Origin: Variovorax sp. V93
Lineage (GTDB): Bacteria; Pseudomonadota; Gammaproteobacteria; Burkholderiales; Burkholderiaceae_C
Assembly (NCBI RefSeq): GCF_041154485.1
Contig: NZ_AP028669.1
Location: 5,373,001 to 5,437,000, forward strand
Length of the DNA: 64,000 bases
Reading direction: 5' to 3'
A program made the position numbers and the translations under genes. Below the pieces are notes generated by a model. That model searched no databases and was not told the origin of the DNA. It worked only from the letters and a program-made list of their open reading frames with translations. Below are positions 37,623-57,112 of this stretch, piece after piece; position 1 is the first letter of the stretch, and each line of letters starts with the position of its first letter.

Positions 37623-40799
<3,177 letters not shown>

Positions 40800-40935
40800 G
40801 GGCGGTGGGCTTTCGGGGAATGTGGATTAGGGGGAACCCGCGATTTTACCGGCCTCGCTCCAACCCCCTCCTGCAGCGGCCAGAACACCCCACTGATGCT
40901 CTTTGGCGACACCCGGGCTGCTAGAGTTGTCACCC

Positions 40936-41316
40936 ATGCACGGGCTGCACCTCACCGCCGATCTCCACGACTGCCAATGCGCCATGCAATGGCTCACCGA
41001 CAAGGAGGCGCTCGGCGCCGTCTGCATCAAGGCGGCAACGGCCGCCGGGCTGCAGCCGGTGGGCAAGCTGGTCCATGGTTTTCCGGCCACGCCGCAAGGG
41101 CCGGGCGGCGTCACGGCCACCGTGCTGCTGGCCGAATCGCACCTGTGCATCCACACCTGGCCCGAACAGCGCGGCGCCACGCTCGACGTGTATGTGTGCA
41201 ACTTCGGCGGCGACCATTCGGCCAAGGCGCATGCGCTGATGGAATGCCTGGTCGCGCTGTTCCAGCCGCGCCACAGCGAGCGCAACGAACTGCTGCGCGG
41301 CAGCGTCGCCGCGTGA
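40936..41316 (+). CDS. speD: S-adenosylmethionine decarboxylase proenzyme
   Basis: A 126-residue class 1B enzyme that cleaves itself to form a pyruvoyl cofactor and makes decarboxylated AdoMet for spermidine. S68 in LLAESHLCIHTWPE is the self-cleavage site; H73 and C88 have the same spacing as in the short bacterial enzyme. The start MHGLHLTADLHDC is preferred over a longer frame. Its stop overlaps the GTG start of the nucleotidyltransferase gene by 4 bp. An aminopropyltransferase partner gene is not adjacent; the nearest is the membrane-anchored one at 48830-50374. Confidence 0.93.
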   Translation: MHGLHLTADLHDCQCAMQWLTDKEALGAVCIKAATAAGLQPVGKLVHGFPATPQGPGGVTATVLLAESHLCIHTWPEQRGATLDVYVCNFGGDHSAKAHALMECLVALFQPRHSERNELLRGSVAA

Positions 41317-42050: not shown

Positions 42051-43441
42051 CCTCAGAAGACCACCGGATCTACGCCGAGCGCCGCGCGCGCCTCGCCTCG
42101 CAACTGGGCAAGGACGGCATCGCCATCGTCCCGACCGCGCCCGAGCGCCAGCGCAACCGCGACAGCGACTTCCTGTTCCGGCACGACAGCTATTTCTATT
42201 ACCTGACCGGCTTCACCGAACCCAACGCCTGGCTGGTGCTCGCGGGCGACGGCCGCAGCATGCTGTTCTGCGCGCCCAAGGACCTGGAGCGCGAAATCTG
42301 GGACGGCTATCGCCTGGGCCCCGACGCGGCGCCCGCGCCGCTTGGCATCGACGAGGCCTTCTCGGTCGACGAGCTCGACGCCCGGCTGCCGAAGCTGCTC
42401 GAGAACAAATCGACCGTGTGGTTCCCGTTCGCGATCCACAAGGGCCTCGAAACCCGCGTCGACGGCTGGCTGCAGTCGGTGCGTGCACGCGTGCGCTACG
42501 GCGCGCTGTGCCCCGAGGAACTGCACGACCTGTGCGGTCCGCTCGACGAAATGCGCCTGGTGAAGGACGCGCACGAACAGGACATCATGCGGCGCGCCGC
42601 GCAGATCAGCGCGCGCGCCCACATCCGCGCGATGCAGCTGTCGGCGCGCATGCTGCGCGAAGGCAAGGACGTGCGCGAGTACCACCTCGACGCCGAGCTG
42701 CTGCACGAGTTCCGCCTGGGCGGCTCGCAGTACCCGGCCTACGGCTCGATCGTGGCGGCGGGCGCCAATGCCTGCGTGCTGCACTACCGCGCCGACGCCG
42801 CGCCGGTGCGCAATGGCGAACTGGTGCTGATCGACGCAGGCTGCGAACTCGACGGCTATGCCAGCGACATCACACGCACCTTCCCGGCCAACGGCAGGTT
42901 CAGCGGCCCGCAGCGCGCGCTGTACGACCTGGTGCTCGCGAGCCAGGACGCCTCGGCCGCGGTGACCAAGGCCGGCAACCGCTTCACGGACCCGCACGAT
43001 GCGGCGGTCAAGGTGCTGGCGCAGGGCATGCTCGACCTCGGCCTGCTCGATGCCGGCAAGGTCGGCAGCGTCGACGACGTGATCGACTCGCGCGCCTACT
43101 TCCAGTTCTACATGCACCGCACCGGCCACTGGCTCGGCATGGACGTGCACGACTGCGGCAGCTATGTCGAGCCCACGCAGGTGGGCGAGGTGAGCGAACG
43201 CAAGGACCCGCTGTCGAACGAAGTCATCAAGAACCGGCCGAGCCGCATCCTGCACCCCGGCATGGTGCTGACGCTGGAGCCCGGCATCTACGTGCGCCCC
43301 GCCGACGGCGTGCCCGAGCAGTTCCACAACATCGGCATCCGCATCGAGGACGACGCGATCGTCACGGCCACCGGCTGCGAACTCATCTCGCGCGGCGTGC
43401 CGGTGAAGGCGGACGAGATCGAGGTGCTGATGCGAGCGTGA
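42047..43441 (+). CDS. pepP: Xaa-Pro aminopeptidase (aminopeptidase P)
   Basis: A 464-residue M24 metallopeptidase of the pita-bread fold. Metal ligands appear in order: two aspartates in IDAGCELDGYASDITRTF, the histidine in TGHWLGMDVHDCG, and glutamates in TLEPGIYV and GIRIEDD. It removes N-terminal residues that precede proline. The ATG overlaps the MurU stop by 4 bp, and its own stop overlaps the GTG of the next gene. Its last 22 codons are duplicated 1.2 kb downstream (44611-44678), which is unusual and indicates a past recombination at this site. Confidence 0.93.
   Translation: MTSEDHRIYAERRARLASQLGKDGIAIVPTAPERQRNRDSDFLFRHDSYFYYLTGFTEPNAWLVLAGDGRSMLFCAPKDLEREIWDGYRLGPDAAPAPLGIDEAFSVDELDARLPKLLENKSTVWFPFAIHKGLETRVDGWLQSVRARVRYGALCPEELHDLCGPLDEMRLVKDAHEQDIMRRAAQISARAHIRAMQLSARMLREGKDVREYHLDAELLHEFRLGGSQYPAYGSIVAAGANACVLHYRADAAPVRNGELVLIDAGCELDGYASDITRTFPANGRFSGPQRALYDLVLASQDASAAVTKAGNRFTDPHDAAVKVLAQGMLDLGLLDAGKVGSVDDVIDSRAYFQFYMHRTGHWLGMDVHDCGSYVEPTQVGEVSERKDPLSNEVIKNRPSRILHPGMVLTLEPGIYVRPADGVPEQFHNIGIRIEDDAIVTATGCELISRGVPVKADEIEVLMRA
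43374..43441 (+). repeat. pepP 3' end, original copy of a 68-bp duplication
   Basis: This segment is repeated at 44611-44678 with 65 of 68 identities; the three differences all fall in third codon positions and keep the encoded residues. It includes the pepP stop codon and overlaps the GTG of the membrane gene. Confidence 0.9.
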
Positions 43442-44589
43442 GCACCGTCCGCAAGCGGCGTTCCAAACCGGTGGACGACCGCCCACCGTATTGGATGCAG
43501 CAGTGGCTGGTGCATCACAGGAAGTCTGGCCGCTTCGATGGGCATGAGTACTGCATCTACGACATCCACAAGCCCAAGGGCCCGCCGCTGTCCTCGGCCT
43601 GCGCGGAAGGCGTGATCTCGCGGATCGGCGATACCGCACTGGAACTGCGGGAGCCCGAGTCCGCCTTTTCTGGTTATGCGATCTGGTTCGGCCTGCTGGC
43701 CGCGGCGCCGATGGTGGCGCTGCTGTTCTACGCAGACATGCCCCGGTCCCTCTGGGGTGCGCTGCTTGCACTCTGCCTTGCCTGTGTGGGAGTGTGTGCC
43801 TCCGCTTTCGGGGCGCTCTGGATTTTCGCGACTTTCAAGGAACTGCTGGCCCCCACGCCGTTGAGCGTCGGTTTCCTGTGCGACCGGCTCAACCAGAGAC
43901 TGTGGTGGCACGACGGCGTGAAGGAACGGTGGGTGGCGTGGGACCGGATCCGTGTCGTCCATCGCCCAGGCTTCCCGGGGACGGAAAGCGTCGAGGCTCT
44001 GCGCCTGCTGGTACTGGATCAGGATGATTCACTCGTCTGCACATCGCCGCAAGGGACGAAACCATTGGCGTTCACGCTGCCCGCCTGGCGGGTCGGCCAT
44101 CGATGCGCGCGATCGCACAATCCCCACACCGAAGCGCGCAAGGCCGTCCTCGACTTCATTGCGGTGTTCATGCGCGAGGGCCGCGCATCGTTGCCTGCCA
44201 CCCGCTGGCGAACGCCAGCGAAGGACCTCGAAAGGCTGTTTCTGGATCTGGCTCACACATTGGATTTTTTCGCCGGTCCTCGCGCAAGCGCCTCGAGGAA
44301 TGCACGCGCCCTCTGCGCGGTGCTGATGGCGCTGGCCGCGCCCTTCCTGCTGCCGCCGCAATGGATGCACGCGCTGGCCGAGTTCCGGCGGCGGCCGGGC
44401 GAATGGTCGGCTGCCACCTTGCAGGCGGTCGGAATCGACCCTGGTTCGCCAGCAACCCACCTGGCCGCTCCTGCAGGCAGCCGGTCCTTGCACGCCCCTC
44501 TTGATCGGGAGCAGCGTACGCTGGCGTGGATCTGGATCGCCACGGCCTTCGCCACGTATCTCATCATCGGGTGGAAGATCATCCACTGA
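43438..44589 (+). CDS. Uncharacterised membrane protein inserted behind pepP
   Basis: A 383-residue protein I do not recognise. The GTG start overlaps the pepP stop (GTGA). Hydrophobic stretches lie at about residues 80-98 (YAIWFGLLAAAPMVALLFYA), 103-130 (LACVGVCASAFGALWIF), near 285-300 (ARALCAVLMALAAPFLLP) and at the C-terminus (IWIATAFATYLIIGWKII), giving about four helices with a cytoplasmic middle domain. A central WKERWVAWDRIRVVHRP-like region (VKERWVAWDRIRVV) is conserved in style with DUF6708/T6SS-adjacent membrane proteins, though that match is only a suspicion. Codon use is looser than in neighbours, and the gene is bracketed by pepP-tail copies, so it is probably acquired. Confidence 0.75.
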   Translation: MSTVRKRRSKPVDDRPPYWMQQWLVHHRKSGRFDGHEYCIYDIHKPKGPPLSSACAEGVISRIGDTALELREPESAFSGYAIWFGLLAAAPMVALLFYADMPRSLWGALLALCLACVGVCASAFGALWIFATFKELLAPTPLSVGFLCDRLNQRLWWHDGVKERWVAWDRIRVVHRPGFPGTESVEALRLLVLDQDDSLVCTSPQGTKPLAFTLPAWRVGHRCARSHNPHTEARKAVLDFIAVFMREGRASLPATRWRTPAKDLERLFLDLAHTLDFFAGPRASASRNARALCAVLMALAAPFLLPPQWMHALAEFRRRPGEWSAATLQAVGIDPGSPATHLAAPAGSRSLHAPLDREQRTLAWIWIATAFATYLIIGWKIIH

Positions 44590-44610
44590 GTCAGCGAAGG
44601 ATCTGTGCCA

Positions 44611-44678
44611 GCTGCGAGCTCATTTCGCGCGGCGTGCCGGTGAAGGCGGACGAGATCGAGGTGCTGATGCGAGCTTGA
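44611..44678 (+). repeat. Second copy of the pepP 3' end
   Basis: The final 22 codons and stop of pepP (encoding CELISRGVPVKADEIEVLMRA) are repeated here without the rest of the gene. All three differences from 43374-43441 are synonymous. The copy lies antisense to the end of the LysR gene and supplies its last 18 or so codons. Confidence 0.9.
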
Positions 44679-45594
44679 CGGCACGCTGAGACACCGGCGG
44701 CGGCGCATGCCGCGCCTGCAGGAAGTCGATGAACACCCGGAGCTTGCGCGGCATCTGCGCGCGGCTCGGGTGGTAGAGGTAGAAGCCCGGAAACGTGGGC
44801 CACCACGGCTCGAGCAGCGGCACCAGGCGGCCGCTTTCCAGGTCGCCGCGCACCGCGCCCTCGAAGGCCACCATGATGCCCGCGCCGTCGCGCGCGGCGG
44901 CCAGCAGCACATCGCCGTCGTTGCTGATCAGCGGACCGGCCACTTCGACGTCGAGCACGCGGCCGTCCTGCGCGTATTCCCAGCGATAGAGGGCCCCCGT
45001 GGTCAGGCGGTAGTTCAGGCACTGGTGCTCGCGCAGGTCCTCGGGCGTCTTTGGCAGCCTGCGCCCCGAGAGATAGCGCGGCGACGCGAGGGTCACCATG
45101 CGCTGCGGCCCGCCCACCGGCAGGGCCACCACGTCCTGCGCCAGGCTTTCGCCGAGCCGGATGCCGGCATCGAAGCCGCCTTCGACCAGGTCGATCATCC
45201 GGTTGTCGCAGACCAGCTCCAGCGTGATGTCGGGATAGGCCTCCGCAAAGTCCGCGAAGTGCGGGTTCAGCAGCAATTCGGCCGACACGCGCGCGACGTT
45301 CAGACGCAGCAGCCCGGCCGGCTTGTCGCGCGCCTCGTCCAGGCCTTCGACCGCCTGCGCGAGCGCGGCCAGCGCCGGCTGGGCGCCCTTGAGCAGTTGC
45401 TGGCCCAGTTCGGTCACGCCGACGCGCCGCGTGGTGCGGTCGAGCAGGCGCACGCCGAGCCGCCCCTCGAGCATGCGCACGGTCTGCGACAGGGCCGAGG
45501 GCGACACGCCCAGCTCTTGCGCGGCCCGCGTGAAGCTGGCGTGGTGCGCAATGCGTGCGAAGGCGGCAATGGCGGGGAGCAGTTCGGGCGACAT
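44620..45594 (-). CDS. LysR family transcriptional regulator
   Basis: A 324-residue regulator. The helix-turn-helix (ASFTRAAQELGVSPSALSQT) lies at about residues 18-37, and the effector domain follows with VEGGFDAGIRLGESLAQDVV. The last 18 or so residues (from KLASAPRS onward) are read from the antisense strand of the duplicated pepP tail, so the C-terminus was shaped by that duplication or by an ancestral overlap with pepP. It is on the same strand as the phytase-like gene upstream (45 bp). Its target is unknown. Confidence 0.88.
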   Translation of the reverse strand: MSPELLPAIAAFARIAHHASFTRAAQELGVSPSALSQTVRMLEGRLGVRLLDRTTRRVGVTELGQQLLKGAQPALAALAQAVEGLDEARDKPAGLLRLNVARVSAELLLNPHFADFAEAYPDITLELVCDNRMIDLVEGGFDAGIRLGESLAQDVVALPVGGPQRMVTLASPRYLSGRRLPKTPEDLREHQCLNYRLTTGALYRWEYAQDGRVLDVEVAGPLISNDGDVLLAAARDGAGIMVAFEGAVRGDLESGRLVPLLEPWWPTFPGFYLYHPSRAQMPRKLRVFIDFLQARHAPPPVSQRAVKLASAPRSRPPSPARRAK

Positions 45595-45639
45595 GCGCGG
45601 ATTATGAAGACGCGCTTCCGCCGGCCACTCGCGCTGGCG

Positions 45640-47004
45640 CTACCTGGCCTGCAGCAGCGCGCCCGCTTCCAGCAGCACCAGCTCGTTGTCGTCCGCCTGG
45701 TTCGGCTCGCGGCTGCTGGAGAACGGCAGGTTGTTGTCGTTGCCGACCACGATGTGCGTGGCATCGACCACGTCCACGTTCTCGATCGTGAAGAACGGGA
45801 ACTTGAGCACGCCGTCGTTGAGCGGCTTGCGCGCGAGCCCGGCCGGGTCGGCGATGTTCAGCAGGTCGATGTAGCCGATCTTGCGTACCGCGCCGCCCGC
45901 GTTGGCGTCGCTCAACTCGATCTTGTAGACGCGCTTGAATTTGGCGATGTCGTGGAAGCAGTCGCTGCGCTTCTGGCCCTCGGGGCAGGCCTTGTCGCTG
46001 GCGCCTTCGCCGTTGTCGCGCTCGATGATCAATCCGGTGGTCGCGTCGATCATGTTGAAGTCGCCGATGGCGTGGCCATTGGCTTCGAGCGGGTATTTCC
46101 AGTGGCGGCCGGTCCATTTTTCCGAAGCCACGTCGAACTCCAGCACGCGCAGCGCTTCCTTGCCGTCCAGCTTCTCGTAGTCCTTTGCCTCGGCGTTCCA
46201 CACCGGGCCTTCGAGCAGCGCGTAGAGCTTGCTGCCGTCCTTCGACGAAGCCATGCCTTCGAAGCCCTTGGAGCGCTTGATCTGGAAATCGACCGCGCCG
46301 CCCGGTGCGCCCGGCGTGGTGACGGCCGGATGGTCGGGGGAGCGCACGGCCTTGCCGTCGACCTGCGTGTCGAACACCGCGAGCACCTTGCCCTTGAGGT
46401 CGGCCTTGATCAGGAAGGGGCCGAACTCCTCGCCGATCCACAGGGCGCCGCCGGCAAACTGGAAGCTCTCGGGATCGAAGTCGGAGCCGGTCAGGTAGCG
46501 CTGCTTCGTGCCTTCATGGACGATGCGGAAGGGCACCTTCTTGTCCGGGTCGTGCAGGAAGATGGTGTTCAGGCGGTTGAACTTGCCGCTCTTGAAGTCC
46601 ACCTTGTAGTGGTTCAGGTAGAGCATGAAGTCGGGCGAGTTGGCCTCGGCGCCGGCGCCGTTGTCGGTGAGGATCCAGAACGAGCCGTCGTCCATCTTCT
46701 TGATGCCCGAGTGGCCCTGCAGCGGCTGGCCCTTGAAGGGCAGCGAGACACCGGTGCCGCGGCCACCCGACAAGCCTTCGATGGTGCCCAGCGCCTCCAC
46801 GCGCTTGCCCGAGGTGAACTTGCCGCTCACCTGCAGGTCGGCGGGCGCATCCTTGGGCGCCGCGACGAAGCTTTGCGCGGGCAGCACGGCATGGCCGGCC
46901 AGCGTCGCAGGGAAGGCGGCCTGTGCGGCGGCATGGCCGCAGGCGAGCGCGGCGGCCAGCGCGATGAAAGAAGTACAGAAGAAGAAAGAAGCGGGGCGCG
47001 TCAT
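45640..47004 (-). CDS. Exported esterase-like phytase family protein
   Basis: A 454-residue secreted protein with a signal peptide (about residues 1-28, ending HAAAQ) and a phytase-like beta-propeller domain. Typical stretches are GTIEGLSGGRGTG, FWILTDNGAGAEANSPDF, GGALWIGEEFGPFLIKAD and GFEGMASSKDGSKLYALLEGP. The family hydrolyses phosphate esters or other esters in the periplasm. Two ATG starts are possible; the one chosen begins the signal peptide directly. It precedes the LysR gene on the same strand. Confidence 0.87.
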   Translation of the reverse strand: MTRPASFFFCTSFIALAAALACGHAAAQAAFPATLAGHAVLPAQSFVAAPKDAPADLQVSGKFTSGKRVEALGTIEGLSGGRGTGVSLPFKGQPLQGHSGIKKMDDGSFWILTDNGAGAEANSPDFMLYLNHYKVDFKSGKFNRLNTIFLHDPDKKVPFRIVHEGTKQRYLTGSDFDPESFQFAGGALWIGEEFGPFLIKADLKGKVLAVFDTQVDGKAVRSPDHPAVTTPGAPGGAVDFQIKRSKGFEGMASSKDGSKLYALLEGPVWNAEAKDYEKLDGKEALRVLEFDVASEKWTGRHWKYPLEANGHAIGDFNMIDATTGLIIERDNGEGASDKACPEGQKRSDCFHDIAKFKRVYKIELSDANAGGAVRKIGYIDLLNIADPAGLARKPLNDGVLKFPFFTIENVDVVDATHIVVGNDNNLPFSSSREPNQADDNELVLLEAGALLQAR

Positions 47005-47084
47005 TGGAAAGAGAGGTTCCGTGTCGAAACGCGAGACCATGCCGGCCACGCGTGACGCGGCCATGACATGAGGCACCCGGGCCT

Positions 47085-48713
47085 TCAGCCCGGCGCCGCG
47101 CCCGCGATGTGCCCGCGCGTGAACGCCTCCTCGAAGATCGAATAGCCCGACCAGTCGGCATGCGCGAACGAAAGCCGGCCCGCGATGACACGGCCGCGGT
47201 GCCCCGCGTCCGGCGACATGCGGTGCGCGCCGATCTGCGCAAGCAGGCCCGGCCGCGGGATCGACATGGCGTGGCCGTAGCGCGTGATCTCGATGCGCGT
47301 CGCGAGCGAAGGCAGGTCGGGGTGCGGCACCGAGAGTTCGGCGAGCAGCTCGTCGCGCCAGCTGGTCCAGGGGCGGTCGAGCAGCAGGCGCCGGCCATCG
47401 GCGCCGTCGTGGCGGCTCGGGCCGAGCGGGCGGTACCAGCTCAGCACGGTGCCGCGCGGCGTGGGGTCGAGCGTCTGATGGCGCGCATCGACGTAGCCGA
47501 GGCCGCGCGTGCCGTGGATCACGTTGTCCCAGCTCGGTGCGGCGCCGGGCCGGTCGGCGAGCGGTCCGCGCAGGTGCACGTTGGCCACGAGCCAGGGGGC
47601 ATAGCGCAGGTGCGCGGCGGCGTTCTTCAATACCTCCGGCGCGTTTTCGACCACGCGCGCGGCGATGAACACCGGCAGCGCGACGATGCAACGCCCGGCC
47701 TGCCAGCGCACCAGCGATTGCGATGCGGCATCCCACGCGTCGACCTCGACACCGCCGCGAAGCTCGGCGATGCGCGTGACGGCCTGGCCTGTGCGCAAGC
47801 GGTCGCCGAGCGGCGCGGCCAGCCGCTTTGTGAGCCAGCCATTGCCCTCGGGCCAGGTAAGCACTCCGTCGCGCTCGGCGGCCGATTCGGCGCCGCCGCC
47901 TTTCGCATCGCCGGGCGCGTGAAAGCCATGGCGGCTCGCGAAGTAGTGGATGCCGGCCCAGGCCGAGACCTGTTCGATGCCTGCGCCGTAGTCGTCGCGG
48001 CAGCAGTAGTCGAGGTACCAGCGCAGCTGCGCATCGCCGAAGCCCTCGCCGTCGAGCCATTGCGCGAAGCTGACGGCATCGAGCGCCAGCAGCTCGGGCG
48101 TGAGGGCGGCCTTGAGCGTGGGAATGACGAAGTGCGCCGCGTGCTGCAGCGCGTCGATGCGCTGCGCGAACCTGCGGTACTGCGCGTGCGTGTCGGCGCC
48201 CACGCCATGCAGGGGCAGCAGGCCGTCCTGCCACTCGCCGCGGAAGAACAGCCGCTCCTGCGGGCTGTGGCAGAGGTGGCGCTCGTCGTATTCCCAGCGG
48301 CCCGCCACGCGCCGGCGCAGGCCGAGTTCCTCGAGCAGGTCCTGTACTTCACGCGCATCGTCGCCGGGCGTCGGCAGGTAGTGCGCGCCGAGCGGACAGG
48401 CAATGCCGCTCACCATGCCGCCGCGCGCATTGCCGCCCGCCGCATCCTCGAGCTCGAGCAGCACGAAGTCCTCGATGCCCGCGAGCCGCAGTGCGCGCGC
48501 GGCGGCGAGACCCGCGACGCCGCCTCCGGCAATCACCACGCGCGTGCGCTTCATGCTTGCCGGAGACGGGCCCTTGAGCGCGCTGTCGCGCAGTGCGTGG
48601 CCGCGCGCGACGTCGATGCCGGTGAAGCCGCCGTCGATGGGCGGCGGCGGGGCCTCGCAGCCAGCGAGCGCAAGGGCGCCCGCCGCAGCCCCAAGAAAAC
48701 CCCGGCGCTTCAT
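47085..48713 (-). CDS. Lipid-anchored FAD-dependent amine oxidoreductase-like protein
   Basis: A 542-residue flavoprotein with a signal for export: twin-arginine-like MKRRGFLGAA and lipobox LALAGC at about residue 19. The mature protein begins with an FAD fold, VVIAGGGVAGLAAARALRLAG, and has the flavin amine-oxidase layout (GGMVSGIACPLGAHYLP, then GRVIAGRLSFAHADWSGYSIFEEAF at the end). It is a periplasmic or outer-leaflet oxidoreductase, possibly acting on polyamines given the spermidine synthase gene next upstream. The substrate is not known; phytoene desaturase-like enzymes share the fold. Confidence 0.85.
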   Translation of the reverse strand: MKRRGFLGAAAGALALAGCEAPPPPIDGGFTGIDVARGHALRDSALKGPSPASMKRTRVVIAGGGVAGLAAARALRLAGIEDFVLLELEDAAGGNARGGMVSGIACPLGAHYLPTPGDDAREVQDLLEELGLRRRVAGRWEYDERHLCHSPQERLFFRGEWQDGLLPLHGVGADTHAQYRRFAQRIDALQHAAHFVIPTLKAALTPELLALDAVSFAQWLDGEGFGDAQLRWYLDYCCRDDYGAGIEQVSAWAGIHYFASRHGFHAPGDAKGGGAESAAERDGVLTWPEGNGWLTKRLAAPLGDRLRTGQAVTRIAELRGGVEVDAWDAASQSLVRWQAGRCIVALPVFIAARVVENAPEVLKNAAAHLRYAPWLVANVHLRGPLADRPGAAPSWDNVIHGTRGLGYVDARHQTLDPTPRGTVLSWYRPLGPSRHDGADGRRLLLDRPWTSWRDELLAELSVPHPDLPSLATRIEITRYGHAMSIPRPGLLAQIGAHRMSPDAGHRGRVIAGRLSFAHADWSGYSIFEEAFTRGHIAGAAPG

Positions 48714-48731
48714 TGCACCCGTCCCTTTCGG

Positions 48732-48824
48732 GAAACACCGCGGAACCGGCTTTGCCGGGCCGCTGGTGTTGCCCCCGGCGAGGGGGTGGGCGAAGCGACA
48801 CGAAGTGCGCGAAGGCTGGGGGAG
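48732..48824 (+). repeat. Dispersed intergenic repeat, copy A
   Basis: About 93 bp with two small hairpins (CCGGC...GCCGG and CCCCC...GGGGG types) and the tail CGACACGAAGTGCGCGAAG. It is direct with copy B at 52176-52268 and inverted relative to copy C at 57118-57206. It fills the gap between the flavoprotein and spermidine synthase genes. Confidence 0.85.
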
Positions 48825-48829
48825 ATCAT

Positions 48830-50374
48830 TCAGTGCGTCGTGATCACCTTGCCCCACTCCTGCTCGTAGGTGGTGACAAGGGTCTGGTTCGACAGCCGGT
48901 TCACTTCGGCCGGCACGCGCGCCATGTCGAGCGGAAAATCGAACATCAGCGGCAGGGTGGAGGGCGAGAGAAAGCGCAGCCCGGAAGGCAGCGCATCGGG
49001 CATGCGGTACGGCCGCCGGCTCGCGATGATGTAACCCCATTCGCCGAAGCTCGGCACATGCGCGTGGTAGGGCGTTGCCTGCAGGCCGACCGATTCGATG
49101 GTCGCCGCCACGGTCCAGTAGCTCTTGCGCGCGACCAGCGGCGAGGTGGTCTGGATCACCGCGTAGCCGCTCGCCGAAAGGCGCTTTTCGAGCAGCGCAT
49201 AGAAGCTGTTGGTATAGAGCTTGCCGATCGCGAAGTTGGTGGGATCCGGGAAGTCGACCACGATCACGTCGAAAAAGTCCCCGGGCTGCTGCAGCCACTG
49301 GAACGCATCGGTATTGACGACCTTCACCTTCGGCGACGAGAGCGAATGCCCGTTGAGCGCCGCCAGCGTTTCATGCGCGGTGAAGAGCTGGGTCATGTTC
49401 GGATCGAGCTCCACCAGCGTGACCGATTCGACCGAGGGATATTTCAGGATCTCGCGCACCGCCATGCCGTCGCCGCCGCCGAGCACCGCGACTTTCTTCG
49501 GCGCGCCCTGCGCGGCCATCACCGGATGGACGAGTGCCTCGTGGTAGCGGTACTCGTCGCGCTCGGCGAACTGCAGGTTGCCGTTCAGGAACAGCCGGTG
49601 CCCGAGCTGCCCGCGCGTGACCACGATGCGCTGGTAGGGCGAGGTGGCGCTGAACACGATGCGGTCCTGGTAGAACTTGTCCTCGGCCAGCGTGGTGATG
49701 TGGCCGGCCCCGGCGAAGGCGCCGACCAGCGCGGCCAGCGCCAGCAGGCAGGCCAGCGCATGCGCGCTGATGCGGCGCAGCTCATGGCGGAACAGCCACA
49801 GCGCCCACACGGCCACGGCCGCATTCATGATGCCGAACAGCAGGCCGGTGCGGATCATGCCCAGCTGCGGCACCAGGATGAGCGGAAAGGCCACCGACAC
49901 CGCGAGCGCGCCGAGGTAGTCGAAGGTGAGCACCTGCGACACCAGGTTCTTGAGCTGGATGTTGCGCTTGAGGATGCGCATCACCAGCGGGATCTCGAGC
50001 CCCACCAGCGTGCCGACCACCACCACGAGCCCGTAGAGCAGCAGGCGGAACGCGCCGGGCACGTAGGCGTTCGCGAGGAAGAGAACGGCCGGCAGCGCGC
50101 CGCCGACCAGCGCCACGAGCAGCTCGATGCGCAAAAAGTGCGCGGGCAGCTGGCGCTCGAAGAAGCGCGAGAGCCACGAGCCCACGCCCATCGCGAACAG
50201 GTAGGTGCCGATGATGGTGCTGAACTGCAGCACCGAGTCGCCGAGCAGGTAGGAGCTCAGCGCGGCCGCGGTCAGCTCGTAGACCAGCCCGCAGGCCGCG
50301 ACCACGAACACGCTGGCCAGCAGCGCGATCTCGACCGGCTGCGGCCCGCGCGCATCGGCGGAATGCGCGGACAC
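48830..50374 (-). CDS. Membrane-anchored spermidine synthase-like aminopropyltransferase
   Basis: A 514-residue protein. The first 230 or so residues contain about seven membrane helices (such as VEIALLASVFVVAACGLVY, FLANAYVPGAFRLLLYG), and the C-terminal half is a spermidine synthase domain: KVAVLGGGDGMAVREILKYP, VTLVELDPNM and VIVVDFPDPTNFAIGKLY. The GTG start is supported by GGGGAGG a few bases upstream. The catalytic core is intact, so it may transfer aminopropyl groups at the membrane, but the family may act on other acceptors. It is the second gene of the five-gene module. Confidence 0.87.
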   Translation of the reverse strand: MSAHSADARGPQPVEIALLASVFVVAACGLVYELTAAALSSYLLGDSVLQFSTIIGTYLFAMGVGSWLSRFFERQLPAHFLRIELLVALVGGALPAVLFLANAYVPGAFRLLLYGLVVVVGTLVGLEIPLVMRILKRNIQLKNLVSQVLTFDYLGALAVSVAFPLILVPQLGMIRTGLLFGIMNAAVAVWALWLFRHELRRISAHALACLLALAALVGAFAGAGHITTLAEDKFYQDRIVFSATSPYQRIVVTRGQLGHRLFLNGNLQFAERDEYRYHEALVHPVMAAQGAPKKVAVLGGGDGMAVREILKYPSVESVTLVELDPNMTQLFTAHETLAALNGHSLSSPKVKVVNTDAFQWLQQPGDFFDVIVVDFPDPTNFAIGKLYTNSFYALLEKRLSASGYAVIQTTSPLVARKSYWTVAATIESVGLQATPYHAHVPSFGEWGYIIASRRPYRMPDALPSGLRFLSPSTLPLMFDFPLDMARVPAEVNRLSNQTLVTTYEQEWGKVITTH

Positions 50375-50388
50375 GGCCGCCTCCCCGC

Positions 50389-50607
50389 TCAATGGATGGC
50401 TGCGGCGACGATGACGCAGATGCCCAGGCTCATGGCGGCCACCACCAGGCCCAGCGCCACGTTCTGCTTCTCGACGATTTCGCCCCAGAGGTCGTAGGGC
50501 GTGAGCTTGTCGATGATGAGGAAGCAGAGCCAGAAGATCAGCACGCCGAGCAGCGCATACACGAGCGATCCGAGGACCACGCCCGGTTTCAGCCATTCAA
50601 ATCCCAT
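50389..50607 (-). CDS. DUF350 family membrane protein
   Basis: A 72-residue protein with two hydrophobic helices: LGSLVYALLGVLIFWLCFLI and LGLVVAAMSLGICVIVAAAI, with a short loop containing DKLTPYDLWGEIVEKQN. This is the DUF350 repeat (YjfL-like), found near spermidine synthase, SPFH and DUF4178 genes in many bacteria. Function is unknown; it may be a membrane-channel or scaffold component. It lies 14 bp before the spermidine synthase gene and 62 bp after the DUF4178 gene. Confidence 0.87.
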   Translation of the reverse strand: MGFEWLKPGVVLGSLVYALLGVLIFWLCFLIIDKLTPYDLWGEIVEKQNVALGLVVAAMSLGICVIVAAAIH

Positions 50608-50669
50608 GGGGACCTCCAGTCGTAGTTGCAGTAGTGGGTGACATCAGCGCGAAGCTATGTTGCTCTTGT

Positions 50670-52148
50670 TCATTTGTGGCCGCCGCCGCTCGAATAGCCG
50701 CCATAGGAGCCGCCGTAGCTGCGCGACCCGCCCGACGAGCCGCTGCAGGTGCTCAGGATGACCAGCAGCACGATGATGACGATCACGATGAGGATGATGG
50801 TGCCGCAGCCCAGGCCCGATGCGGCGCTGACCGGCAGCGCATCGCCGCGCGCGAACATGTCCTTCTTGTCGTCGAGCTTGAAGGCGGCGGACACCAGTCC
50901 GCTGTCGAGCTTGCTGCCCGAGGACCAGGTCAGCTCGTTGGCCGAGCGCTCCATCGAAAGCAGCGCGTTGCCGCTGGCGAAATCGCGGTTGAAGGTTTTC
51001 TGGCCGCGCTCCACCTGCCAGTAGAACTCGCCCGCCACATAGGTGGTTTCGGCGTTGTAGGCGTACTGCTGCGTATAGCGCTTGCCCAGGTAGGTGGCGC
51101 TGCTGCCGTTCTCGGCCATGACCGGCGCGCCGGTGGTCGGCTTGACCATGCTCCAGCCGTCCTCGGCGTCCACCAGGAAGCTGAAGCCGCGCTTCTTGTT
51201 GTACAGCAGGTATTCGTTCCAGCCGAAGTGCTCGTCGTCGCCGGGCTCCACGCCCATGCGGTGCTGGAAGCCCACCACCTGCCACTGCGCGCCCTGCAGC
51301 TGGCCGGTGCTGCCGATGGGGATGAGCGGGCGCACGGGTTCGTTCTGCTCCGCGTGCTTCAGCTCGCCGCCGATGCCCTGCGACAGGTCGATGATGCTGT
51401 TGCACGAGCCGCAGGTGATGCTCTTGCTATCGGCCAGGTTGACCGTGACGGGCGCGCCGCAGTTGGGGCAGTTGAAGGCGCGGCCTTTTTCGTCCTTGGC
51501 GGATTCGTCGCGCAGGCCCGTGAGCTGCAGGTCCTCAAGCTGTACCGAGCGGCCCAGGTAGGCGCCGGGCGGCTCGGTGCCGTAGTCGATGCTGAGCACC
51601 AGCCCCTTGTCGCTGCGCAGTTCGACCATGGGGAACGGGCGGCCCAGCTCGGGCAGGTGCGGCAGTTCGCCCTGGGCGGACAGCAGCGTCACCTGCTCGT
51701 TGGACGAGACGGTGTAGCTTTGGCCGTTGAATGCGCTGGCGGCCCCCACGCGCAGGTCGCCCGGCGGTGGCGCGGTGCGCTGCAGCTCGAAGGGCAGCGC
51801 GAACACGTAGGCGCCGTTGTCCTCGCTCAGGATGCCGGTGCGGTCGCCGTCGAGCTCGGCGATCCACTCGGTCCAGCGCCCGCCGGCGGTGCTGTATTGC
51901 AGCCGGCCGATGATGGTGAACGGCTGGTTCTGGATGCGGCCCGCGGCAAACAGCTGCAGCGGGCTGAAGTCGTCGAACAGCTCCGCCATCTTGCCGATGC
52001 GCGCGAGCGTCTCGCCCTGGCGCACGACGGTGCTCTGGCAGTAGGGGCAAACGGCGAAGGCCGATTGTGCGGACCTGAATTCGACCGGCGCGCCGCAGCC
52101 GGGGCAGGGCGCACGGTAGGCGCGCTGGGCGCCGCCTTCTTCAGCCAT
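50670..52148 (-). CDS. DUF4178 domain protein with zinc ribbons and a C-terminal membrane anchor
   Basis: A 492-residue protein. Two zinc-ribbon cysteine sets are clear: CPGCGAP (C15, C18) with CPYCQS (C34, C37), and CPNCGAP with CGSCNS near residues 225-245. DUF4178-type beta-sandwich segments lie after each ribbon (GRLQYSTAGGRWTEWIAEL; WQVVGFQHRMGV). A single membrane helix near residues 455-470 (LIVIVIIVLLVIL) is followed by a Gly/Ser/Tyr-rich tail. It may be a cytoplasmic membrane-tethered adaptor. No enzymatic motif is seen. Confidence 0.86.
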   Translation of the reverse strand: MAEEGGAQRAYRAPCPGCGAPVEFRSAQSAFAVCPYCQSTVVRQGETLARIGKMAELFDDFSPLQLFAAGRIQNQPFTIIGRLQYSTAGGRWTEWIAELDGDRTGILSEDNGAYVFALPFELQRTAPPPGDLRVGAASAFNGQSYTVSSNEQVTLLSAQGELPHLPELGRPFPMVELRSDKGLVLSIDYGTEPPGAYLGRSVQLEDLQLTGLRDESAKDEKGRAFNCPNCGAPVTVNLADSKSITCGSCNSIIDLSQGIGGELKHAEQNEPVRPLIPIGSTGQLQGAQWQVVGFQHRMGVEPGDDEHFGWNEYLLYNKKRGFSFLVDAEDGWSMVKPTTGAPVMAENGSSATYLGKRYTQQYAYNAETTYVAGEFYWQVERGQKTFNRDFASGNALLSMERSANELTWSSGSKLDSGLVSAAFKLDDKKDMFARGDALPVSAASGLGCGTIILIVIVIIVLLVILSTCSGSSGGSRSYGGSYGGYSSGGGHK

Positions 52149-52175
52149 GGCAAACGGCAGCGGATGCAGCTGCGG

Positions 52176-52268
52176 GGAATGCCGTGGAACCGGCTACGCC
52201 GGGCCACAGGCATTGCCCCCTGCAAGGGGGAGGGAGTAGCGACACGAAGTGCGCGAAGCCTGGGGGTT
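52176..52268 (+). repeat. Dispersed intergenic repeat, copy B
   Basis: Same element as copy A in direct orientation, sharing the GTGGAACCGGCT-type start, a CCCCCTGCAAGGGGG hairpin and the tail CGACACGAAGTGCGCGAAGCC. It separates the DUF4178 and SPFH genes and reaches into the SPFH stop codon. Confidence 0.85.
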
Positions 52269-53316
52269 AGACCAACTTCTTGAGCAGCTCCGCCTTCTTG
52301 GCGTCGAACTCTTCCTGCGTGAGGATGCCCTTGGTCTTGAGCTCGCCGAGCTTCTCGAGCGTGGTCATCACGTCGGCCGGGCTCACCACGGCCACGGCAG
52401 GCTGCTGCTGGGTCGCTGCGGCCTGTGCCGCCGCGCCCGGGCTCAGCCCCTGCGCGAGGTTCTGCGCCAGCACCTGGCCCAGCGCCACGCCGGCGCCCAG
52501 GCCCATGGCATCGCCCGCGATGCCGCCGCCCTGGCCCGCGCCCTCGGCGAACTTGGGAATGGCCTGCGCGGTCTGGTACTGCATGAACTTGCCCATGTCG
52601 TTGCCGACCATGCCCATGCCGATCTTCTGGTCGAGGATCTTCTGCAGCTCTTCGGGCAGCGAGACGTTCTGGACCGTGATGTTCTCGAGCTTGATGCCGA
52701 TCTTGGAAAACTCCGGCACCAGCTGCGCGGCCAGCGCCTGGGCAAACTGGATCTGGTTGGCGGCAAGGTCCAGAAACGGCACGCCGCTGGACGCGATGGC
52801 ATTGCTGATGTTCTGCAGCACCAGCCCGCGCAGCTGGCCGTCGAGGTCGGCCACGCCGTAGACGTCGCGCGTGCCCGAGATCTCGGTGTGGAACAGCTTG
52901 GCATCGCCGATGCGGAAGCTGTAGTTGCCGAAGGCGCGCAGGCGCACGGCGCCGAAATCCTTGTCGCGGATGGTGATGGGCTGCGGCGTACCCCACTTCT
53001 GGTCGACCTGCTGGCGGGTGCTGAAGAAGTAGACGTCGCTCTTGAACGGGGACTCGAACAGCTTGTCCCAGTTCTTCAGGTACGTGAGCACGGGCAGCGT
53101 CTGCGTCGTGAGCTTGTACATGCCCGGGCCGAACACGTCGGCCACCTGGCCTTCGTTGACGAACACCGCCACCTGCGACTCGCGCACGGTGAGCGAGGCA
53201 CCGTTCTGGATTTCCATCTCCGCCATCGGGAAGCGCCAGGCCAGCGTGCCGTCGCCGGTCTCGGTCCACTGGATGATGTCGATGAACTGTTTCTTGATGA
53301 AATCCATCAGGGCCAT
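52267..53316 (-). CDS. SPFH domain protein with SHOCT C-terminus (virion core/YdjI-like)
   Basis: A 349-residue cytoplasmic protein. The N-terminal half is an SPFH/Band-7-type domain of the YdjI/virion-core kind (ESQVAVFVNEGQVADVFGPGMY, later YSFRIGDAKLFHTEIS and GVPFLDLAANQ). Then comes a glycine-rich linker, and the last 40 residues are a SHOCT module (TLEKLGELKTKGILTQEEFDAKKAELLKKL). GAGGAG precedes the ATG. It is the promoter-proximal gene of the module and would organise partners at the membrane. Its function is not established. Confidence 0.88.
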   Translation of the reverse strand: MALMDFIKKQFIDIIQWTETGDGTLAWRFPMAEMEIQNGASLTVRESQVAVFVNEGQVADVFGPGMYKLTTQTLPVLTYLKNWDKLFESPFKSDVYFFSTRQQVDQKWGTPQPITIRDKDFGAVRLRAFGNYSFRIGDAKLFHTEISGTRDVYGVADLDGQLRGLVLQNISNAIASSGVPFLDLAANQIQFAQALAAQLVPEFSKIGIKLENITVQNVSLPEELQKILDQKIGMGMVGNDMGKFMQYQTAQAIPKFAEGAGQGGGIAGDAMGLGAGVALGQVLAQNLAQGLSPGAAAQAAATQQQPAVAVVSPADVMTTLEKLGELKTKGILTQEEFDAKKAELLKKLV

Positions 53317-53481
53317 GGCTGCTCCTCGTCGAATTTTTTCCGGACTGCGCATATTGCCACATCGTCTTGACGGGTCTTGCTGCTTTCGGCAGGGTGGATC
53401 TCCGCCATGCGGCCTATGGCGCCCCGGGCCGAGGTCTACAATCGGCGCCCCCAGAAGAAGCGCCACCAGGAGCAACGGCCC

Positions 53482-55824
53482 ATGTCCGATTCGACGATCC
53501 CATCGACCCCCACGCCCGAAGACAAGCGCGCCGAACTGCGGCGCGCCGCCCTCGAGTACCACGAGCTTCCGGTGCCGGGCAAGATTGCCATTGCCGCCAC
53601 CAAGCAGATGGTCAACCAGCGCGACCTGTCGCTGGCCTATTCGCCCGGCGTGGCCGCGCCCTGCGAGGAAATCGTCAAGGACCCGGCCAACGCCTTCAAG
53701 TACACGGCGCGCGGCAACCTGGTGGCGGTGATCACCAACGGCACCGCCGTGCTGGGCCTGGGCGACATCGGCGCGCTGGCATCCAAGCCGGTGATGGAAG
53801 GCAAGGGCGTTCTCTTCAAGAAGTTCGCCGGCGTCGACGTGTTCGACATCGAGATCGACGAGAAGGACCCGGCCAAGCTGGTCGAGATCATCGCCTCGCT
53901 GGAACCCACCTTCGGCGCCATCAACCTCGAGGACATCAAGGCCCCCGACTGCTTCTACGTCGAGCGCGAGCTGCGCAAGCGCATGAAGATCCCCGTGTTC
54001 CACGACGACCAGCACGGCACGGCCATCACCGTGGCCGCGGCCATGCTCAACGGCCTCAAGGTGGCTGGCAAGGACATCAGCGAGGTCAAGCTGGTGACCT
54101 CGGGCGCGGGCGCCGCGGCACTGGCCTGCCTGAACCTGCTGCTCAAGGTGGGCCTCCAGCGCGAGAACGTGTTCGTGACCGACCTGGCCGGCGTGGTCTA
54201 CGAAGGCCGCGAGGAGCTCATGGACGACGACAAGCGCCAGTACATGCAGAAAACCACGGCCCGCACGCTGGCCGAGGTGATCGAGGGCGCCGACGTGTTC
54301 CTGGGCCTGTCGGCCGGCGGCGTGCTCAAGCCCGCCATGGTGGCCAAGATGGCGCCGCGCCCGGTGATCTTCGCGCTGGCCAATCCGAACCCGGAAATCT
54401 CGCCCGAGGACGCCCATGCAGTGCGCCCCGACGTGATCATGGCCACCGGACGCACCGACTACCCGAACCAGGTCAACAACGTCCTGTGCTTCCCGTACAT
54501 CTTCCGCGGCGCACTCGATTCGGGCGCCACCACGATCACCGACGAGATGGAAATTGCCGCGGTGCGCGCCATCGCCGATCTCGCCCAGGCCGAGCAGAGC
54601 GAGCGCGTCGCCGCCGCCTACGTCGGCGAAAAGCTGACTTTCGGGCCCGAATACCTGATTCCGAAGCCCTTCGATCCGCGCCTCATGATGAAGATCGCGC
54701 CGGCGGTGGCCAAGGCCGCCGAGGAAAGCGGCGTGGCCTCGCGCCCGATCAAGGACATGGACGCCTACCGCGACCGCCTGCAGAGCTTCGTCTACGCCTC
54801 GGGCACCACGATGAAGCCGATCTTCGACGCCGCCAAGCGCGCGCAGAAGAAGCGCGTGGCGTACTGCGAGGGCGAGGAAGAGCGCGTGCTGCGCGCCGCC
54901 CAGATCGTGGTCGACGAAGGCATTGCGCGCCCCACGCTGATCGGCCGCCCGGCCATCATCGCGCAGCGTATCGAGAAGTTCGGCCTGCGCCTGAAGGAAG
55001 AGCTCGACTACGACATCGTCAACGTCGAGCAGGACCACCGCTACCGCGACTTCTGGCAGACCTACCACCGCATGACCGAGCGCAAGGGCCAGACGGTGCA
55101 GACCGCCAAGATCGAGATGCGCCGCCGCCTGACGCTGATCGGCGCCATGCTGCTGCACAAGGACGAAGTCGACGGCATGATCTGCGGCACCTGGGGCACC
55201 ACGCTGATCCACCTGCACTACATCGACCAGGTGATCGGCAAGCGCCCGGGCGGCTGCGAAAGCACGCCGCAGGACGTGCCGGTGTACGCCTGCATGAACG
55301 GCCTGCTGCTGCCCGACCGCCAGGTGTTCCTGGTCGACACCCACGTCAACTACGATCCCTCGCCCGAGGAACTGGCCGAGATCACGACCATGGCGGCCGA
55401 GGAAATGATGCGCTTCGGCCTCAAGCCCAAGGCCGCGCTGCTGTCGCATTCGAACTTCGGCACGAGCAACGAGCCCAGCGCGGTCAAGATGCGCAAGACG
55501 CTCGACCTGCTGCGCGTGCAGGCGCCCTGGCTCGAGGTGGACGGCGAAATGCACGGCGACGTGGCGCTCGACAGCAAGCAGCGCGCGATCGTCATGCCGC
55601 ACAGCGCACTGGCGGGCGATGCCAACCTGCTGGTTTTCCCGAACATCGACGCGGCCAATATTTCCTACAACCTGCTCAAGACCGCGGCCGGCGGAAATAT
55701 CGCGATCGGCCCGGTGCTGCTCGGTGCCGCCAAACCTGTGCATATTCTCACGGCCAGCGCAACAGTTCGGCGCATCGTGAACATGACAGCCTTGACAGTC
55801 GCCGACGCAAACGCAGAGCGATAA
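53482..55824 (+). CDS. maeB: NADP-dependent malic enzyme with phosphotransacetylase-like domain
   Basis: A 780-residue enzyme that decarboxylates malate to pyruvate. The N-terminal malic-enzyme domain shows [34 protein letters not shown] (written here in two parts) and the nucleotide motif [14 protein letters not shown]. The C-terminal third is the phosphotransacetylase-like extension typical of MaeB (GVLVDTHV-type stretch [12 protein letters not shown] and [18 protein letters not shown]). Size is normal. AGGAG lies before the chosen ATG. Confidence 0.95.
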
Positions 55825-55873
55825 GCCATTTGGCGAGAGTGGCCGCCAACTTAAAGCGCCACTCGATCCCCTT

Positions 55874-55909
55874 GCGACTGCTCAAACTTTGGGCAGTCGC
55901 TTGCTATTT
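55874..55909 (+). terminator. Likely terminator after maeB
   Basis: GCGACTGC (55874-55881) and GCAGTCGC (55893-55900) form a perfect 8-bp stem with an 11-nt loop, followed by TTGCTATTTT. It is about 50 bp after the maeB stop. Confidence 0.6.
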
Positions 55910-56004
55910 TCGCCAGCGTGGTGCACACTCGCGGGCTTGAATTTGCGGGTTAACCCCAGGGTTGGCTGCCAATTCGGAACCCCGCTCTTTTCTTGTGGTG
56001 CCCC

Positions 56005-56415
56005 ATGGCGGCTTACGCCTCGATCACGTCCTCTGTCACTAAGTTTGCGCTCACCGGCTTGATGCTGGCGGCGTTGGCGACGGGGGCCGAGGCCCGCGGA
56101 TGGTTCGGCACCGGAAAGCCCGCCCAGGAATCGATTGCACTGTCCGAACTGCCGGTTCAGGGCCAGCGAACCTACGAAGCCATCCTGAACGGCGGCCCCT
56201 TCCGATTCGAAAAGGACGGCACGGTATTTGGCAACCGCGAGCGTCTTTTGCCGCCCGCGCGGCGCGGTCACTACCGCGAGTACACGGTGGCAACGCCCGG
56301 CTCGCGCGATCGCGGTGCGCGGCGCATTGTCTGCGGCGGAGAACAGCGCACCACACCCGAGGCCTGCTGGTACACGGCAGACCACTACGCGAGTTTCAGA
56401 CGGATTGCACCATGA
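56005..56415 (+). CDS. Secreted barnase-type guanyl ribonuclease
   Basis: A 136-residue protein with a cleavable signal peptide (about 1-30, ending GAEA). The mature part is an N1/T1/barnase-fold RNase. Catalytic glutamate E92 lies in GHYREYTV, the arginine in RGARRIV (106-107) and histidine H127 in TADHYASF, the same order as barnase. Two cysteines (C110, C121) could form a disulfide after export. It would cleave RNA after guanosine, outside the cell or in a neighbour. It overlaps the barstar-type inhibitor gene by 4 bp. Confidence 0.87.
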   Translation: MAAYASITSSVTKFALTGLMLAALATGAEARGWFGTGKPAQESIALSELPVQGQRTYEAILNGGPFRFEKDGTVFGNRERLLPPARRGHYREYTVATPGSRDRGARRIVCGGEQRTTPEACWYTADHYASFRRIAP

Positions 56416-56891
56416 GCGATGACAAAGACTTGAGCGGCGCCCCGAAGCGCCCCGAAGAAATGATGATGACTATGGAAAGACCAGCGGAGATGACCCTATC
56501 CCTTCGTGCCGTACGCCCGAACATCGTGCAGTCGATTCGTGCGTTCCGCGTGAACGACCTGCAGGAAGCCGCCAACGCCGCGGGCCAGCACTTCCTGTAC
56601 GCCAATCTGGGGAATGCCCAGACCAAGCAGGACGTTCTGGACCTGATCGCCCAGCAGTTCACCTTTCCGGCGCATTTCGGCAAGAACTTCGACGCGCTGT
56701 ACGACTGCATGACCGACCCGTTGCATAAATCGGGCCCGCAGCCCGGTTTCGTGATCGTGCTCGAGCAGATCCCGGCCAACGCCAAGTTCGACAAGGAAGC
56801 GCGCGAGCAGCTGCTCGACATCTTCCGCGATGCTTCCGACTACTGGGGCGACCGGAAAGTCCCGTTCCGCTGCTTCTATTCTTTTCTGTAG
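56412..56891 (+). CDS. Barstar family ribonuclease inhibitor
   Basis: A 159-residue cytoplasmic protein whose barstar domain spans about residues 70-159: TKQDVLDLIAQQFTFPAHFG, KNFDALYDCMTDPL and VIVLEQIPANAKFD, with acidic positions for binding the RNase active site. An N-terminal extension of about 65 residues is longer than in Bacillus barstar. Its ATG overlaps the RNase stop by 4 bp, so toxin and immunity are made together. This protects the producer from its own RNase before export. Confidence 0.88.
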   Translation: MSDDKDLSGAPKRPEEMMMTMERPAEMTLSLRAVRPNIVQSIRAFRVNDLQEAANAAGQHFLYANLGNAQTKQDVLDLIAQQFTFPAHFGKNFDALYDCMTDPLHKSGPQPGFVIVLEQIPANAKFDKEAREQLLDIFRDASDYWGDRKVPFRCFYSFL

Positions 56892-57112
56892 CCCGTTCTG
56901 CACACACCAGCCAAGCAGAACGGGCGAACGAGGCTCAGCCGAACGGCGCAGCACTCGATGGCATCGAAATCAACGGCAGCACCGCCAATGCGGCCGCCGG
57001 CACGGAACCCGAAGGCGAAAAGATGCCGACCGACAAACTGGTCGACGTCTCGCCGCTCGCATTGCGCATGAGCAGCCCCTTCAACGCGGGCTACTGGCTC
57101 GCGGCGGCCTGA
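56892..57112 (+). pseudogene. Coding-like remnant behind barstar in a shifted frame
   Basis: The frame whose TGA is at 57110-57112 has about 81 % G/C at third positions and stays open back into the barstar gene, but has no start for its first 130 bp. It encodes ...GTEPEGEKMPTDKLVDVSP... and ends FNAGYWLAAA. An ATG at 57023 with a weak AAGGCG upstream could start a 29-residue peptide. It could be the broken 3' part of another gene, or a -1 frameshift extension of barstar. No family is recognised. Confidence 0.35.

Follow-up and report, generated by a model that had tools for sequence, protein, structure and literature searches.

Two described systems come closest to the gene group treated here, which lies in a 64,000-nucleotide stretch of the Variovorax sp. 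V93 genome (NZ_AP028669.1, positions 5,373,001 to 5,437,000; hereafter the window) and centres on a membrane-bound relative of the spermidine synthase SpeE. The first, from Li et al. 2019, is said to join an S-adenosylmethionine (AdoMet) decarboxylase (AdoMetDC, SpeD) to a fusion of a major facilitator superfamily (MFS) domain with spermidine synthase (MFS-SpdSyn) and to a DUF350 protein. An acceptor other than putrescine was reportedly proposed, and such fusions reportedly gave no spermidine and no complementation. The window shares with that system SpeD, the membrane SpeE fusion and DUF350; the abstract reportedly contains neither a module with SPFH and flavin adenine dinucleotide (FAD) proteins nor an argument for a catalytic domain outside the cytoplasm. 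The second is the second major group of Ravi et al. 2024 (PMC11237479), a PspA-linked operon with a seven-transmembrane (7TM) spermine/spermidine-like synthase, DUF350, a lipoprotein and DUF4178. The same paper mentions, in the paragraph on a glutathionylspermidine-synthetase-like group, a form in which band-7/SHOCT goes with AdoMet decarboxylase and polyamine oxidase. The combination of membrane SpeE, DUF350 and DUF4178 is already described (PMC11237479).

The window module resembles the Ravi operon in having a 7TM SpeE-like protein, DUF350 and DUF4178 together in a membrane-stress setting. It differs in that an SPFH-SHOCT protein replaces the CesT/Tir-PspA dyad, in an exported FAD protein, and in the shortness of its DUF350 protein; no PspA or CesT/DUF2170 match was found at 38001-57000 of the window, the part of the genome searched for PspA. 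We tentatively read the locus, at somewhat under even confidence, as a six-gene module that aminopropylates a molecule of the cell envelope, with the catalytic domain outside the cytoplasm.

Results

Five genes follow one another on the minus strand in the order SPFH-SHOCT, DUF4178, DUF350, membrane SpeE and FAD protein, with intergenic gaps of 118, 62, 14 and 116 bp. A sixth, speD, is convergent to them, about 5.8 kb beyond the FAD gene.

52267..53316, minus strand: SPFH/Band-7 protein with C-terminal SHOCT, 349 aa (PF13421, 1.3e-77; PF09851, 1.3e-8)
50670..52148, minus strand: DUF4178 protein, 492 aa (PF13785, 2.6e-31, two stretches)
50389..50607, minus strand: short DUF350 protein, 72 aa (PF03994, 3.7e-14, profile positions 7-65 of 133)
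48830..50374, minus strand: membrane aminopropyltransferase-like (SpeE) protein, 514 aa (NF002956, 4.7e-206, on the longer open reading frame)
47085..48713, minus strand: FAD protein of the flavin amine oxidase family, 542 aa (PF01593, 2.1e-18)
40936..41316, plus strand: SpeD, S-adenosylmethionine decarboxylase class 1b, 126 aa (PF02675, 9.7e-26)

An earlier note on this DNA had described the first five as a collinear membrane/polyamine module. Their order, strand and bounds are borne out and all five parts are real, but the list missed SpeD. Variovorax supplies the best protein matches. In a profile search of the 6.74 Mb genome, of which the window is a part, this gene gave the only PF02675 match (40948-41301 of the window). 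It is intact and carries the ESH processing motif, as do all 43 SpeD open reading frames (ORFs) compared, and the profile match and ESH site together assign it to AdoMet decarboxylase class 1b. A PF01564 search of the genome returned the membrane SpeE and one match of 24.8 bits, just above the cut-off; because the latter is weak, the membrane SpeE is the only strong partner of SpeD by this search. SpeD would then be the source of decarboxylated AdoMet (dcSAM) for the module.

In four sampled genomes (G082, G171, G102 and G220) SpeD and soluble SpeE matches lie next to each other in open frames of equal length (410-451 residues), which likely encode SpeD-SpeE fusions. Two of these genomes (G082 and G171) have a membrane SpeE besides these frames.

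Comparisons were drawn from 249 Pseudomonadota genomes, 27 of them above the NF002956 cut-off for membrane SpeE. Loci were taken from the 26 other above-cut-off genomes and from two sub-cut-off long-branch relatives (L060 and L061), which were kept in the helix, charge and residue sets and left out of the flank counts. A further 80 named loci were the best 80 of 576 confirmed in an alignment scan of genome contigs and are biased to near relatives; many of these records are metagenome bins whose taxon labels may be wrong. All ORFs of the loci were searched with profiles built from the proteins of the window.

The membrane SpeE consists of seven hydrophobic helices, six of which form an MFS half, followed by a C-terminal domain with the SpeE fold. 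The membrane part was folded separately because a whole-protein VIA search had filled with SpeE rows. The six-helix half has the fold of an MFS transporter, but the two halves and 12 helices of such a transporter are absent, since seven helices precede the catalytic domain in the model; compared with FLVCR1/2, SotB and VMAT2, the window protein has only one half in its chain. The SpeE fold places the catalytic domain in the aminopropyltransferase family, as do D302, D324, D356, D374 and D377, kept in 33/33 sequences, which we take to be the donor-site and catalytic acidic residues. Membership of this family would imply aminopropyl transfer from dcSAM to putrescine or another amine. The earlier note had likewise called the protein a membrane aminopropyltransferase, and both the membrane location and the aminopropyltransferase fold are supported. 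Unlike the soluble aminopropyltransferases (Thermus 3anx/1uir, human 2o06, E. coli 3o4f), which have no membrane half, the window protein has several pocket positions fixed to other residues. Its catalytic domain is also depleted in cysteine compared with soluble SpeE, the soluble relatives in the sample carrying cysteines.

The retained fold and aspartates would also suit the organism's ordinary spermidine synthase, merely tethered to the membrane and with loosely linked neighbours. The protein is the genome's only strong PF01564 match, SpeD is nearby, and the NCBI family name is polyamine aminopropyltransferase. We consider this improbable: the pocket positions unlike those of soluble SpeE speak against it, as do the lack of spermidine and of complementation reported for the fusions of Li et al. 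2019, and the tight linkage to DUF4178 described below would be unexpected for a housekeeping enzyme. A further point against it is that Ralstonia pickettii, a beta-proteobacterium, is said to make putrescine and 2-hydroxyputrescine (PMC7857480).

Helix and charge statistics were computed for 109 family sequences, of which one was dropped as too short. By the positive-inside rule, all 108 had a charge pattern with the N-terminus inside, and helix 7 had a mean best-19 hydropathy of 1.83. Because an inside N-terminus and seven helices would leave the C-terminal domain on the far side, and because of the MFS-half fold and the cysteine depletion, we predict that the SpeE-like catalytic domain is extracytoplasmic, on the same side as the exported FAD enzyme. 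This predicted topology is absent from the earlier note and appears to be new here: our periplasm and family searches, whose coverage left out most subscription papers, found no published outward orientation for membrane SpeE.

The same predictions bear on the chief alternative, in which the catalytic domain is cytoplasmic and, at the surface of the membrane, aminopropylates an inner-leaflet lipid or a membrane protein; the FAD enzyme would meet a flipped product or act on another substrate. This would make dcSAM export unnecessary. It also agrees with a SpeD that looks cytoplasmic (a 15-residue hydropathy of at least 1.6 occurs in the N-terminal 40 residues of only 2 of 43 raw ORFs), and the SPFH protein, the zinc-type motifs of DUF4178 and the PspA of a sister form would suit the cytoplasmic face. 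We nevertheless judge it rather unlikely, given the uniform N-in pattern (108/108), the seven-helix model, the hydrophobicity of helix 7 (mean 1.83), the MFS-half fold and the cysteine depletion.

The FAD protein begins MKRRGFL...LAGC, a twin arginine followed by a lipobox. Simple patterns were applied to 76 relatives; of the 72 in which the dinucleotide motif was located, 53 scored as twin-arginine-like and 46 as having a lipobox (both in 36). In several members from Acidobacteriota records the arginines are present and the cysteine is missing. The protein belongs to the flavin amine oxidases by PF01593 (67.3 bits against a cut-off of 19.8; 25/29 members match at E 0.001). Profile comparison places it nearest to putrescine and monoamine oxidases, at weak similarity (E 7.9e-14), with SpdH also weakly matched. 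It shares PF01593 with flavin amine oxidases and SpdH, and SpdH is described with a twin-arginine translocation (Tat) signal (PMC11107197). It differs from them in its weak similarity, in an extra invariant N-terminal GHxxR motif (G38, H39 and R42, ahead of the FAD-binding motif, in 29/29) and in having no invariant lysine. It is likely to act on an amine outside the cytoplasm, as an oxidase or a dehydrogenase.

These likenesses also bear on a special case of our reading, in which polyamines made or extended in the periplasm would form a coat that protects the envelope from cationic stress, with the FAD enzyme trimming them. Putrescine oxidase and, weakly, SpdH are within reach of the FAD profile, and surface spermidine of Pseudomonas aeruginosa is dependent on PA4773-PA4774 (PMC3572637); the Tat-type signal of the spermidine dehydrogenase SpdH (PMC11107197) points the same way. 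PMC11107197, however, rates the surface-spermidine evidence as marginal, assigns PA4774 as thermospermine synthase and gives it as 349 aa, shorter than the membrane SpeE. With a pocket unlike that of soluble SpeE as well, we regard this special case as slightly less probable still than the tethered synthase.

The genes group together more often than chance would give. Among the 80 named loci, 56 had at least 3.5 kb either side of the SpeE ORF, and of these 48 carried SPFH, 50 DUF4178, 51 DUF350 and 49 the FAD gene; SpeD was present in 25, on the same strand in 8. These counts are not an independent sample, because the loci were selected for their closeness to the protein of the window. The FAD gene followed SpeE on the same strand within 300 bp in 56 of the 73 loci having 1.2 kb downstream. 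In the sampled genomes, 23 of the 26 loci had such flanks, with SPFH in 5, DUF4178 (window's profile) in 9, DUF350 in 20, the FAD gene in 8, SpeD in 10 and PspA in 7. Conservation of the neighbourhood, which the earlier note had set as a test, is thus borne out, with DUF4178 found only in membrane-SpeE genomes and the FAD gene always at the locus: DUF4178 occurred in 19 of the 249 genomes (18 above cut-off), all within the 27 and in 0/222 others (Fisher p 1.6e-22), and PF02675 SpeD in 22/27 against 47/222 (p 8.8e-10), the p values being a guide only as the genomes are related. Three of the five membrane-SpeE genomes without PF02675 have a class 2 AdoMetDC. A relative of the FAD protein (E ≤ 1e-30) was present as one copy each in 10 of the 27 genomes, always near membrane SpeE: it adjoins it in nine and lies about 5 kb away in G190. 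In G178, DUF4178 and SPFH stand 10-13 kb upstream.

SpeD also joins the gene set on the same strand (L041, L042, L126-L129, L131, L133-L135, L138 and L140); in records of Acidobacteriota and Gemmatimonadota it lies within the operon. The order SPFH, SpeD, DUF4178, DUF4178, DUF350, SpeE, FAD is found in records titled Acidobacteria, Bryobacterales/Bryobacteraceae or Gemmatimonadetes/Gemmatimonas (L128, L129, L134, L135 and L138). L127 has no FAD gene within the 1.9 kb of sequence available downstream, and DUF350 overlaps SpeE in L140. SpeD follows the FAD gene on the same strand in L041 and L042 (Pseudomonadota of another class), and in L035 and L039 the same gene content is split into two divergent groups.

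A sister form of the module has SpeE with PspA, DUF2170/CesT-like proteins and a large DUF350. The PspA profile matched in seven loci (L043, L047, L050, L051, L053, L055 and L057), with related markers in L054, L056, L058 and L059, and neither SPFH nor FAD occurred together with PspA in any of the 80 named or 26 sampled loci. In a tree of 58 SpeE rows, made by a quick method and with some long branches, the 40 rows with SPFH or FAD are separated from the rest by a branch of SH-aLRT 99, so that this form is one clade in the tree; seven of the 58 rows carry markers of neither form. SPFH and PspA families are membrane-surface scaffolds. Since they are never together and the two forms separate in the tree, they seem to occupy the same place in the module.

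The SPFH-SHOCT protein, assigned by its Band_7_1 and SHOCT domains, has no 19-residue window with Kyte-Doolittle (KD) hydropathy of at least 1.6 and hence no hydrophobic stretch; it is likely a scaffold on the cytoplasmic face. The DUF4178 protein carries two four-cysteine motifs (cysteines 15/18/34/37 and 227/230/246/249), a C-terminal hydrophobic stretch at 437-474 and a tail rich in Gly, Ser and Tyr, and the DUF350 protein, which covers about half of its model, has two hydrophobic stretches. Neither the DUF4178 nor the SPFH protein had a useful sequence match among solved structures.

The earlier note had also allowed for a defence role. The mad2 profile of PADLOC matches the SpeE catalytic domain (9.4e-15), and membrane SpeE is patchy (above cut-off in 27/249 genomes), as defence genes often are. 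The mad2 match is partial, however, and no PADLOC match was obtained for SPFH, DUF4178, DUF350 or SpeD; among the seven proteins scanned (the six of the module and a phytase-like neighbour), the only other hit was a weak match of the FAD protein to a desaturase model (2.3e-4). The scan of these seven found no system, and in particular only this one partial mad2 match, where MADS would have several mad genes together; defence or mobile genes among the other neighbours were outside the scan. We hold an anti-phage function very unlikely, and overall the earlier interpretation is partly supported. The mad2 match to the SpeE-fold domain of 48830-50374 (9.4e-15) points to a SpeE-like domain in mad2 of the MADS defence system itself.

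The 118- and 116-bp gaps each hold one copy of an approximately 90-bp repeat:

52160..52266, minus strand: repeat copy 1, with a hairpin-like CCCCC/GGGGG core (aligned with copy 2)
48714..48829, minus strand: repeat copy 2, between the SpeE and FAD genes (aligned with copy 1)

The repeat has at least 41 matches in the genome, both module copies included, with 40 of 82 candidates scored. Its folding into a hairpin is possible and could influence expression between the module genes. An Rfam scan of the window gave no match, and a simple scan found no promoter-like sites (0.5 expected) and six terminator-like ones (3.3 expected). We dropped longer mechanical ORF starts for SpeE and the FAD protein: GTG 50374 was taken as the SpeE start because GGGGAGG precedes it, and ATG 48713 as that of the FAD protein. 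The phytase-like downstream gene (47004-45640) was excluded from the module, as a relative was found in only one of 29 loci, the window itself.

Directly after speD lie a nucleotidyltransferase-like gene (PF00483, 41316-42050, plus strand) and then an aminopeptidase P gene (42047-43441), whose 3' end recurs beyond an intervening ORF region in a 71-bp direct repeat, 94% identical (43371-43441 and 44608-44678). The region between the repeats looks as if inserted, with the pepP end duplicated.

Discussion

Module membership, the fold, the conserved SpeE-family residues, the predicted topology and the FAD export signal were computed here; dcSAM export, the acceptor, the order of the two reactions and the scaffold role are inferred. 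The mechanism we propose takes its first and last steps from gene content and its second and third from the predicted topology. SpeD would produce dcSAM in the cytosol. The membrane SpeE would span the inner membrane with seven helices, N-terminus inside and catalytic domain outside. Its six-helix MFS half, probably as a dimer that perhaps reconstitutes a pore of two MFS halves, would let dcSAM across. The catalytic domain would move the aminopropyl group to an envelope amine, such as a lipid head group, a periplasmic amine or a polyamine, and the exported, membrane-anchored FAD enzyme would oxidise the product or clear free amine. SPFH-SHOCT, DUF4178 and DUF350 would act on the cytoplasmic side to organise the complex or regulate it, in the position that PspA and DUF2170-like proteins have in the sister form. 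That the transferase acts outside through its own dimeric MFS half, exporting dcSAM so that an envelope product is then processed by the FAD enzyme, is possible, and we hold this more detailed version a little less firmly than the module as a whole.

Several observations weigh against this reading. Used alone on the membrane part, Foldseek gave no match with E < 0.13, and the charge and helix predictions ran without a control protein of known topology. In some sequences helix 7 has low hydrophobicity (best-19 values down to 0.67; 3/108 have under 19 residues in this part), and loop 5-6 averages about one K/R. The cysteine argument is weakened by the SPFH protein, which is presumed cytoplasmic and is likewise cysteine-free. 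A305, L323 and A357, which differ from soluble SpeE, adjoin donor-site residues; with the donor and acceptor sides of the pocket presumably as in related structures, the difference is therefore not confined to the acceptor side. We know of no precedent for dcSAM outside the cytoplasm, and a six-helix MFS half acting as a pore is only an idea. Flavin amine oxidases have an active-site lysine near the flavin, and the invariant columns of the 29 FAD sequences include no lysine, so the FAD protein may not be a classical amine oxidase. The gene set also varies. Seven of the 80 named loci have no partner gene (L110, L112-L115, L118 and L123, some on short contigs), and neither AdoMetDC class was found in two of the 27 genomes (G037 and G057). 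In G082 and G171 the Band-7/SPFH gene is found elsewhere in the genome, SPFH is at the locus with the FAD gene absent in G074, and G164, G179 and G010, with Band-7 elsewhere and no FAD gene, argue against a strict set.

Aminopropyl chemistry is so far known inside cells, and an outward active site would be a new place for it. If the reading is true, an AdoMet-derived group is transferred on the outer side of the inner membrane, the FAD protein offers a second, assayable enzyme of the same pathway, and the membrane crossing of the charged sulfonium donor becomes directly testable. Many bacteria keep SpeD with a membrane SpeE, and for them an outside active site would make the periplasm and the outer leaflet, rather than cytosolic polyamines, the place to look for the acceptor.

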